Assembly: GCA_002731375.1 (NCBI GenBank)
Contig: PCBT01000077.1
Coordinates: 25,670-59,845, forward strand
Direction: 5' to 3'
From: Rhodospirillaceae bacterium
GTDB taxonomy: Bacteria > Pseudomonadota > Alphaproteobacteria > GCA-2731375
DNA: 34,176 nucleotides
Each line of letters starts with the position of its first letter. Within the stretch, counting starts at the first letter, position 1. This document shows, piece after piece, positions 30,902-34,176 of this stretch. Below the pieces are notes generated by a model. That model was not told where the DNA came from. It worked only from the letters and a program-made list of their open reading frames with translations, and searched no databases. The translations under genes and the position numbers were made by a program.

Positions 30902-32599
30902 ATGAGGATTATCATGCAGGCTGCTTACGCCCGGGACCAGGTTATCGCTGTCGAGGAATTATTGCCGCTTTGCGGCGCGGCCCTGGGGGCGGCGGATGAT
31001 TTGTTGGCGCGGGCCCGCCAAGGCGTCCGTGCCATGGTCTCGAAAGATGGCGCAATCGATGCCGGGCTGATTGAACAGCAGCAGTTCGCCGTGCATGGCC
31101 TGGCCTGGCTGGCGACCTATAACGAGGCCCTGCGGCAAAGCTTGGCCTGGGCCAAACAATTGGCGGGGGATGGCAAGTTCGGCGGCTTGGAGCGATTGCT
31201 TCTGCAATTGGGTTTTGGCGGCTATTTGACGGAAATGGCCAACGGCATCGCCATGAGCCAGATCGAAGTGGTGCGCCCGCTCGACCTTGGGCTTGACGAT
31301 GAGGACATGGCGGCCTTTCGCACCGATGCGGTGGAGCGGCTGATCGCCCAGGGCAACACCCAGGCCGGACGCGACCAGCTTGCCCTGCTGTTGGTCGAGG
31401 CTGCCGGCGGCGCTGAGTTCGGCGAATTGGGTCTGGACGAGACCCTATCGATGGTGCGCCAGCAATTCCGCCGTTTTACCGAGGCGAACGTAACCCCCGA
31501 TGCCCATGGCTGGCACATGCGCGACGAGTTGATCCCCATGGATGTGGTCGACGGGATGAGCGAGATGGGCGTGTTCGGCCTGACCATTCCTGAACAATAT
31601 GGCGGCCACGGCATGGGCAAGACCGCCATGTGCGTGGTCTCGGAAGAACTTAGCCGGGGCTATATCGGCGTCGGCTCTCTCGGCACCCGTTCCGAAATCG
31701 CCGCCGAGTTGATCCTGCATGGCGGGACGGAGGATCAGCGGCAGCATTGGCTACCCAAGATCGCCTCGGGCGAGATCCTGCCCACCGCCGTCTTTACCGA
31801 ACCGAACGTGGGCTCGGACCTGGGCAGCGTCGGCACCCGCGCCATCCTTTGCGGTGATGTTTACAAGATCCAGGGCAACAAGACCTGGATCACCCATGCT
31901 GCCCGCGCCGACATGATGACCCTGCTGGCGCGCAGCAATCCCGAGCAGCGTGGTTATCGCGGCCTGTCCATGTTCCTGGCCGAGAAACCGAGGGGTACGG
32001 TGGAGGAGCCGTTCCCAGCGCAGGGCATGTCGGGCGGCGAGATCGAGGTGCTGGGCTATCGCGGCATGAAGGAATACGAGATTGCCTTCGATGGCTTCGA
32101 GGTCGGGGCCGATAACTTGCTGGGCGGGGAAGAGGGCAATGGCTTCAAGCAGCTGATGGCAACTTTTGAATCCGCCCGTATCCAAACAGCGGCGCGGGCC
32201 GTGGGCGTGGCCCAGAATGCTTTTGAGCTGGGCTTGAACTACGGCATCGAGCGCCAGCAGTTCGGCGGTGCTATCGTGCGCTTCCCCCGGGTTGCTGGCA
32301 AGCTGGCCTGGATGGCGGTGGAGATTATGCTGTCACGGCAATTAACCTATTATGCGGCCCGGCAAAAGGATCGGGGCCGGCGCTGTGATCTGGAGGCGGG
32401 CATGGCGAAGCTGTTAGCGGCCCGGGTTGCCTGGTCGTCCGCCGACAATGCGGTGCAGATCCATGGCGGTAATGGTTTTTCATTGGAATTCCCCATCTCC
32501 CGCGTTCTGTGCGATGCCCGCATCTTGAATATTTTTGAGGGCGCGGGCGAAATTCAGGCGCAGGTCATCGCTCGGCGCCTGTTGGAAAGCCATAATTAA
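30902..32599 (+). CDS. mcd: (2S)-methylsuccinyl-CoA dehydrogenase-like acyl-CoA dehydrogenase
   Basis: A 565-residue acyl-CoA dehydrogenase with an extra N-terminal domain of about 170 residues. That domain contains FAVHGLAWLATYNEALRQSL and MSQIEVVRPLDLG, which I recognise from methylsuccinyl-CoA dehydrogenase (Mcd) of the ethylmalonyl-CoA pathway; ordinary acyl-CoA dehydrogenases are about 380 residues. The core has MGVFGLTIPEQYGGHG, TAVFTEPNVGSDLGSVGTRA for FAD binding, and IFEGAGEIQAQVIARR with the C-terminal glutamate (Glu546) that is the base in many family members. It would convert methylsuccinyl-CoA to mesaconyl-CoA, passing electrons to ETF. The start is 30902, or 30914, which has GAGG upstream. 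No other ethylmalonyl-CoA pathway gene is in view. Confidence 0.82.
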   Translation: MRIIMQAAYARDQVIAVEELLPLCGAALGAADDLLARARQGVRAMVSKDGAIDAGLIEQQQFAVHGLAWLATYNEALRQSLAWAKQLAGDGKFGGLERLLLQLGFGGYLTEMANGIAMSQIEVVRPLDLGLDDEDMAAFRTDAVERLIAQGNTQAGRDQLALLLVEAAGGAEFGELGLDETLSMVRQQFRRFTEANVTPDAHGWHMRDELIPMDVVDGMSEMGVFGLTIPEQYGGHGMGKTAMCVVSEELSRGYIGVGSLGTRSEIAAELILHGGTEDQRQHWLPKIASGEILPTAVFTEPNVGSDLGSVGTRAILCGDVYKIQGNKTWITHAARADMMTLLARSNPEQRGYRGLSMFLAEKPRGTVEEPFPAQGMSGGEIEVLGYRGMKEYEIAFDGFEVGADNLLGGEEGNGFKQLMATFESARIQTAARAVGVAQNAFELGLNYGIERQQFGGAIVRFPRVAGKLAWMAVEIMLSRQLTYYAARQKDRGRRCDLEAGMAKLLAARVAWSSADNAVQIHGGNGFSLEFPISRVLCDARILNIFEGAGEIQAQVIARRLLESHN

Positions 32600-32677: not shown

Positions 32678-32722
32678 GGATGGGTGCGAGAGTGGTTGAA
32701 TCGACCGGTCTTGAAAACTGGT
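32678..32722 (+). tRNA. 5' half of tRNA-Ser(UGA), likely attachment site
   Basis: The sequence has a GGATGGG acceptor strand, a TG linker, a D arm closed by CGA/TCG around GAGTGGTTGAA, and an anticodon stem CCGGT/ACTGG around the loop CTTGAAA with anticodon TGA. This is a serine tRNA up to the end of the anticodon stem. The variable arm, T arm and 3' acceptor strand are missing; AT-rich DNA follows at once. It therefore cannot be a working tRNA. Because an integrase gene begins 80 bp later, this is best read as the chromosomal side of an integration site, with the other half of the tRNA at the far end of the element. Confidence 0.75.
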
Positions 32723-32731
32723 AAATAGTTG

Positions 32732-32792
32732 TTAAGTCATTGAATATACAATATATTACACAATGAATTGACTTACCAACAGGTTACCAACA
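32732..32792. repeat. Repeats upstream of the integrase, possible recombinase arm sites
   Basis: TTACCAACA occurs twice, at 32773-32781 and 32784-32792, 11 bp apart, about one helical turn. Just upstream, TAAGTCATTG (from about 32732) and CAATGAATTGACTTA (ending about 32775) form an imperfect inverted repeat. Such short repeats between a half tRNA and an integrase gene are where arm-binding or excisionase sites, or an autoregulated integrase promoter, would be expected. Confidence 0.45.
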
Positions 32793-32802
32793 ATATGGCG
32801 CC

Positions 32803-34035
32803 ATGCCAAGAGTAAGCACTTCAAAAACTCGACATAATCCCGAGGACCTGACCACCATCCGTGGTTACCCCGATACCCTGAAACTGTTCCGCATGCCGGC
32901 ATCCAAATTCTGGTACGTGCGGATGTTCATCTACGGCAGGGGCATCGTTAAGAAATCCACCCGATGTGAGAAACTCAGCGATGCCAGGGAATTTGCCATT
33001 TCCTGGTACGAAGACCGCCTACTGGAGAAGAAGCAACACAAAGCAATCGGTTCACAGTCCTTTGCGGTGTTTGCCGCCAGGTTACAGGAAACACAAAAAC
33101 GACAAATCTCCAGAGGTGAACTGGTTCCTGAGATGGCGGCGTATGACAAGCAACGCTTGGACAGGGATGTCCTGCCTCGTTTCGGTACAACCCATATCGC
33201 CAAGATCGACTACAAATCCGTGGATGAGTTTATCGATGATCTGAAGAACGACAGAGACCTCGCCCAATCCACCTTGAAGAAATACGTAGTGCTCATTCGC
33301 AAGGTGATGAAGGAAGCAGAACGTGAGGGTGTACTCGACCACATTCCCTCTCTACCCACCGTTAAACGCAACGACACCCCTCGACCCTGGTTCTCACCTG
33401 AAGAGTATCAACAGGTACTCAATGCCTGCCGTGAGTTAAGAGATAATCCACCTCCCAGGTACCAGTTCGATTTTGCAGAGATGTATGACTTCATCGTTTT
33501 CATGATCCACACCTTCCTCCGACCCAGTGAATGGAAGATGCTGCAGAACAAACACATCCGGTTTCTGCAGCAAGACGGGATAGAGCAACTGGTGATCTCG
33601 GTTCCCAACCCCAAGACCCTGAGGGCAGGGGGGCACATCGACAGTACCTCCACGGAGATTGCAGCGGAGGTTTATCGCAACAGACTCCTCATGAGGAATG
33701 ACGGAGCAAACGACTATCTGTTTCTCAATGAGATCAAAGACCGTGATTATGCCGGCGACAGAATGTCCAGCATGTTCAAGTTCGTGGTCGAGAGGGCAAA
33801 CCTTGAAAGGGACCGGTATGGGCAAAAGCACACAACCTATTCCCTGCGTCACTCTGCCCTGTGCTACCAGATCCTGAAGACCGAGGGCAGGGATCTGTTT
33901 GGATTGGCAAAGAACGCCAGAACCTCGGTGCTGATGCTGGAGAAGTTCTACCTCACCGATCTCTCACCTCAGATGCCGCAGTTTGTTGCTCAGTTGCGCA
34001 CCACCCAGACCCTGGAGACCAAGGGAGCGCCATGA
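32803..34035 (+). CDS. Tyrosine recombinase / integrase
   Basis: A 410-residue site-specific recombinase. The catalytic domain has the first arginine in TFLRPSEW (about residue 239), an arginine-histidine pair in YSLRHS (Arg349) where the usual HxxR has Tyr at its first position, and the nucleophile Tyr383 in VLMLEKFYLTD. The N-terminal half contains an arm-binding-like region and a core-binding SAM-like helical domain (about 75-185; FAARLQETQKRQISRG onward). Base composition is clearly less GC-rich than the neighbours, which suggests transfer. It starts 80 bp after the half tRNA-Ser and reads away from it. The last 140 bp of the window (34036-34176) are AT-rich and show no gene. The cargo of the element lies beyond the right edge. 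Confidence 0.92.
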   Translation: MPRVSTSKTRHNPEDLTTIRGYPDTLKLFRMPASKFWYVRMFIYGRGIVKKSTRCEKLSDAREFAISWYEDRLLEKKQHKAIGSQSFAVFAARLQETQKRQISRGELVPEMAAYDKQRLDRDVLPRFGTTHIAKIDYKSVDEFIDDLKNDRDLAQSTLKKYVVLIRKVMKEAEREGVLDHIPSLPTVKRNDTPRPWFSPEEYQQVLNACRELRDNPPPRYQFDFAEMYDFIVFMIHTFLRPSEWKMLQNKHIRFLQQDGIEQLVISVPNPKTLRAGGHIDSTSTEIAAEVYRNRLLMRNDGANDYLFLNEIKDRDYAGDRMSSMFKFVVERANLERDRYGQKHTTYSLRHSALCYQILKTEGRDLFGLAKNARTSVLMLEKFYLTDLSPQMPQFVAQLRTTQTLETKGAP

Positions 34036-34176
34036 AGGGTGAATTTAGAAGGAGAGAACTTGAAATCTGACTAATATTATTACTAACCCATTGATATTAT
34101 TGAAAAGTCTCGATTTCTGGGGTTTCGTTCTCCTATTTCCAAACTTTTTTCGTGCATATGGACTTTTAGAGTATCC

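Follow-up and report, generated by a model that had tools for sequence, protein, structure and literature searches.

The right end of the DNA examined here, a stretch of 34,176 nucleotides (G000:C77:25670-59845, hereafter the window), is one edge of a mobile element that splits a host tRNA gene at the anticodon. The explanation that we regard as likely, taken as a whole, is that an integrative element recombined into the anticodon arm of the host tRNA-Ser(UGA) gene, the window retaining the integrase-side end. The core would be so short (only ~10 bp) that neither junction rebuilds a tRNA. The host would survive on a complete tRNA of the same anticodon that the element brings, and the anticodon arm of this spare copy, altered or interrupted by an intron, would make it a poor target for the same integrase.

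The split tRNA gene and its integrase

For the window, the split gene with its 5′ half, the integrase and the mobility of the element are all observed. The 5′ half of the host tRNA-Ser(UGA) comprises 41 nt (32678..32718, + strand) and breaks off on the 3′ side of the anticodon arm. By sequence comparison these 41 nt are the same as the start of the intact tRNA-Ser(UGA) called by ARAGORN in the congener G004; starting with 32719, there is only scattered agreement with that gene. The anticodon TGA lies at 32712-32714, within the anticodon loop CTTGAAA (32710..32716, +), which is the presumed 7-bp overlap region of the crossover; this placement is drawn from relatives, whose common cores of 9-17 bp are situated on the anticodon arm. 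ARAGORN finds no tRNA in the 34,176-nt window, in agreement with the initial annotation, which held that the tRNA is not rebuilt on the integrase side. The host flank carries an acyl-CoA dehydrogenase gene (30902..32599, +; Pfam), which has orthologues in 11 of 11 genus genomes searched and served as the anchor for locating the empty site in congeners.

Beyond the tRNA half, the left arm of the element (32719..32802, +; GC 0.32) carries two direct repeats TTACCAACA at 32773-32781 and 32784-32792. These are presumed to be arm-type integrase sites, and similar repeats (ACCAAC or TTACACA) precede the integrase in relatives. The tyrosine recombinase gene (32803..34035, +; 410 aa) is identified by PHROG 1 integrase (E 1.5e-23) and by Pfam Phage_integrase (E 3.5e-5), the latter at 24.1 bits, under the curated cut-off of 27.1. 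Residues Arg240 and Tyr383, which we take to be catalytic, are invariant in alignments A1 and A2. AT-rich element sequence (34036..34176, +; GC 0.34) then runs to the end of the contig, which is also the end of the window, 141 bp beyond the integrase. GC is 0.592 in the window left of the tRNA half, 0.490 over 32719-34176 and 0.518 in the integrase gene. The initial annotation was thus accurate in describing a tRNA-Ser half, a nearby tyrosine recombinase (its ATG is 84 bp on) and a drop in GC from 0.59 to 0.49.

Element-free relatives, whose comparison had been proposed at the outset, contain an intact tRNA-Ser(UGA) at the same site, after the same acyl-CoA dehydrogenase gene (congeners G004 and G001). 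In G010 (Alphaproteobacteria bacterium isolate Arabian10_MAG_24), another species of the genus, an integrase occupies the same place, on a contig cut inside the gene. From the anticodon core onward, the window's genome (G000) and G010 are identical at 787 of 800 bp (98%), whereas only 22 of the 30 bp before the core are identical and the neighbouring dehydrogenase genes are 84.7% identical. Therefore the 5′ half is each host's own, the element is common to both and the breakpoint lies in the anticodon arm. This bears out two earlier claims, that the junction is one end of an integrated element and that crossover occurred at the anticodon stem-loop. Since the orthologous intact site is present in two congeners and the same junction in a third, the junction is not due to chance; on the evidence of these sequences it is a mobile insertion. 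The 10 other congeners show that this site is not fixed in the genus: in 7 of them a different stretch, without such a tRNA, follows the dehydrogenase gene.

Nine tRNAs of at least 82 nt occur in G000, with GCT, CGA and GGA as the serine anticodons among them. An intact tRNA-Ser(UGA) was found neither in the G000 assembly nor among the matches read in G010, and the G000 assembly likewise yielded no tRNA-Ser(UGA) 3′ half; with 115 contigs, 96.2% completeness and 6.66% contamination, such absence is weak evidence alone. The right flank of the G004 tRNA maps to G000:C36:66798-67666, and by eye the ORFs from there to the end of C36 resemble host genes. An isolated tRNA-Ser-like T arm with an acceptor 3′ strand, lacking the remainder of a tRNA, at G000:C93:11330-11354 was rejected as the far half, being without an element-like core before it. 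With strict filters, no group I intron was reported in G000. A tRNA-Ser(UGA) is normally required for reading UCA, so a functional one must exist somewhere. By analogy with the relatives described below, we predict a core of ~10 bases, an orphan 3′ half at the far end and a complete spare tRNA-Ser(UGA) in the part of the element that lies beyond the contig; since the contig stops 141 bp after the integrase, the window does not reach that end.

Relatives with both ends and a spare tRNA

Scanning the genome collection with short patterns returned five loci, including the contig of G010 itself. When 385 genomes of the class were searched with a profile, 28 had matches (44 match rows, from which 30 loci were read). 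At 11 of these 30 loci, the window included, the tRNA beside the integrase is split, being cut in the anticodon arm and left unrestored on that side; a complete tRNA stands just upstream of the integrase at 12, which is the canonical rebuilt state, and 7 loci have neither. Within the order of the window's integrase (15 genomes), G010 and three weak matches were found besides the window; within that of G243 (9 genomes), G243 alone matched. Two integrases compared with 50,697 phage records gave no match; distant relatives occur in five viral contigs, and plasmid records gave 25 integrase matches. For the four best plasmid matches, the surrounding 7-kb stretches contain no tRNA by ARAGORN; by eye, a tRNA 3′ half precedes the integrase in some of them, as it would in a conventional attP.

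On the integrase tree, the window falls in a supported clade (97/98) of six rows, all of them split and all with tRNA-Ser targets. A single origin of the split state was rejected, since five changes are needed on the 33-row tree, at least three of them forced by well-supported branches, with the bootstrap not settled. Restriction of the targets to class II tRNAs (Ser, Leu) was also dropped, because both target and spare of L117 are tRNA-Arg(CCU). One locus, L127 (G025:C1, ~2.944 Mb), combines rebuilding with a spare tRNA: one complete tRNA-Met(CAU) lies upstream of the integrase, and a second, different one, also complete, follows it at ~295 bp.

Five relatives have both ends, and in them the orphaned other half, the failure to rebuild and the spare tRNA are observed. 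L092 (Ser(CGA); ~11.8 kb, the measured 11,857 including a 41-base overlap of two stretches) has the 10-bp core CTCGAAAACC and is the only member of the window's Ser clade with both ends. L102 (core CGGACTTAAAATC, 20.4 kb) and L106 (core ACTTAAAATC, 27.5 kb) occupy Leu(UAA), and L093 of Bradyrhizobium sp. CCGUVB4N (core CGCTCGACTCAAAATCG, 46.9 kb) occupies Leu(CAA). L117, at Arg(CCU) (core ATTAGGAAT, 9.4 kb), is a mirror image with the 3′ half on the integrase side. None of the ten junctions contains a tRNA by ARAGORN, yet the host halves of all five elements, when joined, give a complete tRNA of the expected anticodon. Each of the five also carries a complete tRNA of that anticodon inside. The expectation that the 3′ half lies at the far end thus holds in four relatives, the fifth being the mirror image; the window's contig ends before that point.

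Adding G010, L090, L092, L093, L094, G130:C26 and the viral contigs L129 and L132 to the 11 split loci of the survey gives 19; at 11 of them a complete tRNA with the matching anticodon was seen downstream. The tRNA half of L132 extends a few bases past the anticodon arm. That of L110, an atypical tRNA, has TAA in the loop, and the spare, which contains an intron, is labelled Phe(aaa) by ARAGORN; after comparing the elements, we read half and spare as probable Leu(UAA). Because of the break past the anticodon arm in L132 and our own reading of the L110 anticodon, a strict count is 9 of 17. No spare tRNA was seen before the contig end in the 3.3 kb downstream at L101 or the 2.2 kb at L129. No far half was found in the sequence examined for L104, L107, L110 and L094, and the 5′ half at G130:C26 is decayed. 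Six of the 19 contigs (the window, at 34036-34176, G010, L090, L100, L126 and L113) end inside the integrase or at most 450 bp after it. These repeated stops suggest variable or multi-copy sequence downstream.

The spare tRNA would be expressed, and it would be required for stable integration, for which two genomes give an indirect hint. The element's Leu(CAA) in L093 (Bradyrhizobium) and Leu(UAG) in L094 (Sphingobium) are the sole copies of their anticodons among 10 and 9 listed tRNAs of at least 80 nt, respectively, in listings that could have missed intron-bearing tRNAs.

Two arrangements of tRNA fragments were observed besides these. The contig start L239 (G119:C8:1-5000) has four tandem tRNA-Ser(UGA) 3′ halves (T arms at ~34, 352, 790 and 1106), ~320-440 bp apart, with a similar AT-rich arm before each of the last three; it resembles an array of attachment units that are leftover or minimal. 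In L106, a stretch resembling a tRNA 3′ end, in which ARAGORN finds no tRNA, follows the split Leu(UAA) 5′ half and may be what is left of a further attachment site.

A MobA/VirD2-type relaxase and a TraG-like coupling protein are encoded among the 10 longest ORFs of each of L102, L106 and L093. Defence-type genes accompany them: type I restriction, AbiEii, a KwaB-like protein and the antirestriction protein ArdA in L102; SIR2-like, caspase-like and HipA genes in L106; GmrSD in L093. L092 and L117 (7 and 8 ORFs scanned besides the integrase) have TET-associated glycosyltransferase domains. No virion family was matched in any of these ORFs. A 1022-aa protein of L092 (L092:13669-16737) has matches to a C5 DNA methylase, a TET/JBP oxygenase (below cut-off) and a TET-associated glycosyltransferase, which suggests that DNA hypermodification may be encoded on the element.

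Other explanations can be set against these relatives. Rebuilding could proceed in mirror image, with a 5′ half at the far end of the element completing the host 3′ half, as in pTN3-like archaeal integrases. The window displays the integrase side alone, 5′-type restoration is rare but real (PMC8371274) and a 5′ fragment occurs in 159 of 3919 Islander islands (PMC4383910). This is nevertheless unlikely, as the far junction is not a tRNA in any of the five relatives with both ends, and in G119, a Ser(UGA) relative, the stretch with 3′ halves holds no tRNA by ARAGORN and has element-like DNA before them. The initial annotation had also considered that the tRNA was sacrificed because another copy exists, which would place a second chromosomal tRNA-Ser(UGA) outside the assembly and none on the element. 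G243 (L100), one of the window's closest relatives with a Ser(UGA) target, does combine a split copy with an intact tRNA-Ser(UGA) on another contig; the downstream stretches of L101, another of these relatives, and of L129 are without a visible spare, and 7 of 10 other congeners do not have the gene at this site. Yet G004 and G001 have it intact at this very position, no intact Ser(UGA) turned up among the matches read in G000 and G010, and the relatives bring their own copy. We consider such a sacrifice decidedly unlikely; what stands of the suggestion is that in the relatives a complete copy does exist, supplied by the element itself. Least probable is a dead remnant or an artefact of assembly or binning, with a decayed or chimeric junction. 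Although the assembly is in 115 contigs and this one ends just after the integrase, the same junction appears in the separate assembly of G010, the integrase frame is open, and 98% identity joins two genomes whose flanks have diverged.

Possible escape of the spare tRNA

Under the preferred explanation, insertion into the anticodon arm compensated by an element-borne tRNA, the spare should itself be a poor target. In five Leu(UAA) elements, a group I intron sits in the anticodon loop of the spare. The RF00028 scores are 52.2 (L102), 44.5 (L104), 56.0 (L106), 50.7 (L110) and 38.7 bits (G130:C26), three of the five lying above the cut-off of 50. The anticodon-arm exons of the L102 spare equal the host target sequence, so the intron alone distinguishes the two arms; in L106 one outer base is different. 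The spares of L092, L093 and L117 are intronless and have anticodon stems unlike that of the target, and by eye the same holds for L094 and L107. The case for protection is weaker in L092, where the difference is confined to the two outer stem pairs and the 10-bp core is the same as in the target.

As a control, 30 group I intron loci were read in the 385 genomes: an integrase of this family lies within 1.5 kb in four and at 2.1 kb in a fifth. Around five further tRNA-Leu(UAA) genes with introns, the 1.5 kb read contains no such integrase, so these introns also occur without an element.

The intron or the altered stem could stop the element from attacking its own spare tRNA. More specifically, immunity would come from hiding the anticodon loop, by a self-splicing group I intron in the 7-nt loop of the recombination site (Leu UAA) or by a recoded stem (Ser, Leu CAA, Leu UAG, Arg); we put this forward tentatively, as a possibility that falls slightly short of probable. 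If true, selection would keep an intron as an integration shield, in bacteria and on the attacking element itself. The introns of archaeal tRNAs are of the endonuclease type. Randau and Soell are credited with proposing that they guard against integration (PMC4390854). No description of intron-bearing replacement tRNAs on such elements was found in the literature searched, mostly outside subscription journals.

Known systems and implications

The closest known system is tRNA-dependent lysogeny, described in 2024, with genetics, for the actinobacteriophages Fionnbharth, LeBron and Gaia (Guerrero-Bustamante and Hatfull, PMC10865867). As there, a tyrosine integrase targets a host tRNA and, in the relatives, no tRNA is rebuilt at either junction. 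In the window, a tyrosine integrase has its attB in a tRNA gene; rebuilding is absent from its left junction and from both junctions in five of five relatives. The cores are of similar length (8-17 bp in the phages, 9-17 bp in the relatives), and a tRNA with the anticodon of the target is borne by the phages (PMC10865867) as by the five relatives with both ends. Gaia closely resembles L093 in that its target is tRNA-Leu(CAA) and a tRNA-Leu(CAA) of its own lies downstream of int. The phages use Lys, Ile2 and Leu(CAA) targets, whereas Ser, Leu and Arg are targeted here in Alphaproteobacteria. Unlike the phages as portrayed in the accessible parts of that paper, three elements here have relaxase and coupling-protein genes, and the spares bear introns or altered stems. 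The word "intron" appears once in its text, and the available passages do not concern the spare tRNA (PMC10865867).

Restoration of the tRNA upon integration is what the available parts of a review (PMC8371274) and a database paper (PMC4383910) state. Islander-type islands share the target region and recombinase type with the elements described here, but at one of their junctions the tRNA is restored, and a single fragment remains (PMC4383910); the five relatives with both ends have fragments at both junctions. Islander searches for a complete tRNA plus a fragment, and was thus not built for the present arrangement (PMC4383910). The initial annotation called this junction unusual: it does depart from the pattern of the island catalogue, although the principle had already been published for actinobacteriophages (PMC4383910; PMC10865867). 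In Caldiarchaeum, a disrupted tRNA-Thr likewise shows a 5′ tRNA fragment and a recombinase gene, followed 1.8 kb further by a complete tRNA of this kind that contains an intron, and the authors suggest that introns block further integration (Sugahara 2012, PMC3293823). That case is archaeal and, in the passages available, is read as a tRNA reconstituted at the junction (PMC3293823), whereas in the five relatives with both ends the spare lies inside the element and both host halves are found.

The principle is therefore known, the host group and the kinds of element are new, and so are the intron-bearing or stem-altered spares. Whole-tRNA replacement, published for phages of Actinobacteria, now also covers Alphaproteobacteria and elements that carry mobilisation genes. 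This suggests why such islands can escape catalogues that seek a rebuilt tRNA and one fragment. A concrete and testable explanation also follows for the presence of group I introns in the anticodon loops of tRNAs, namely that they interrupt the target of an integrase.
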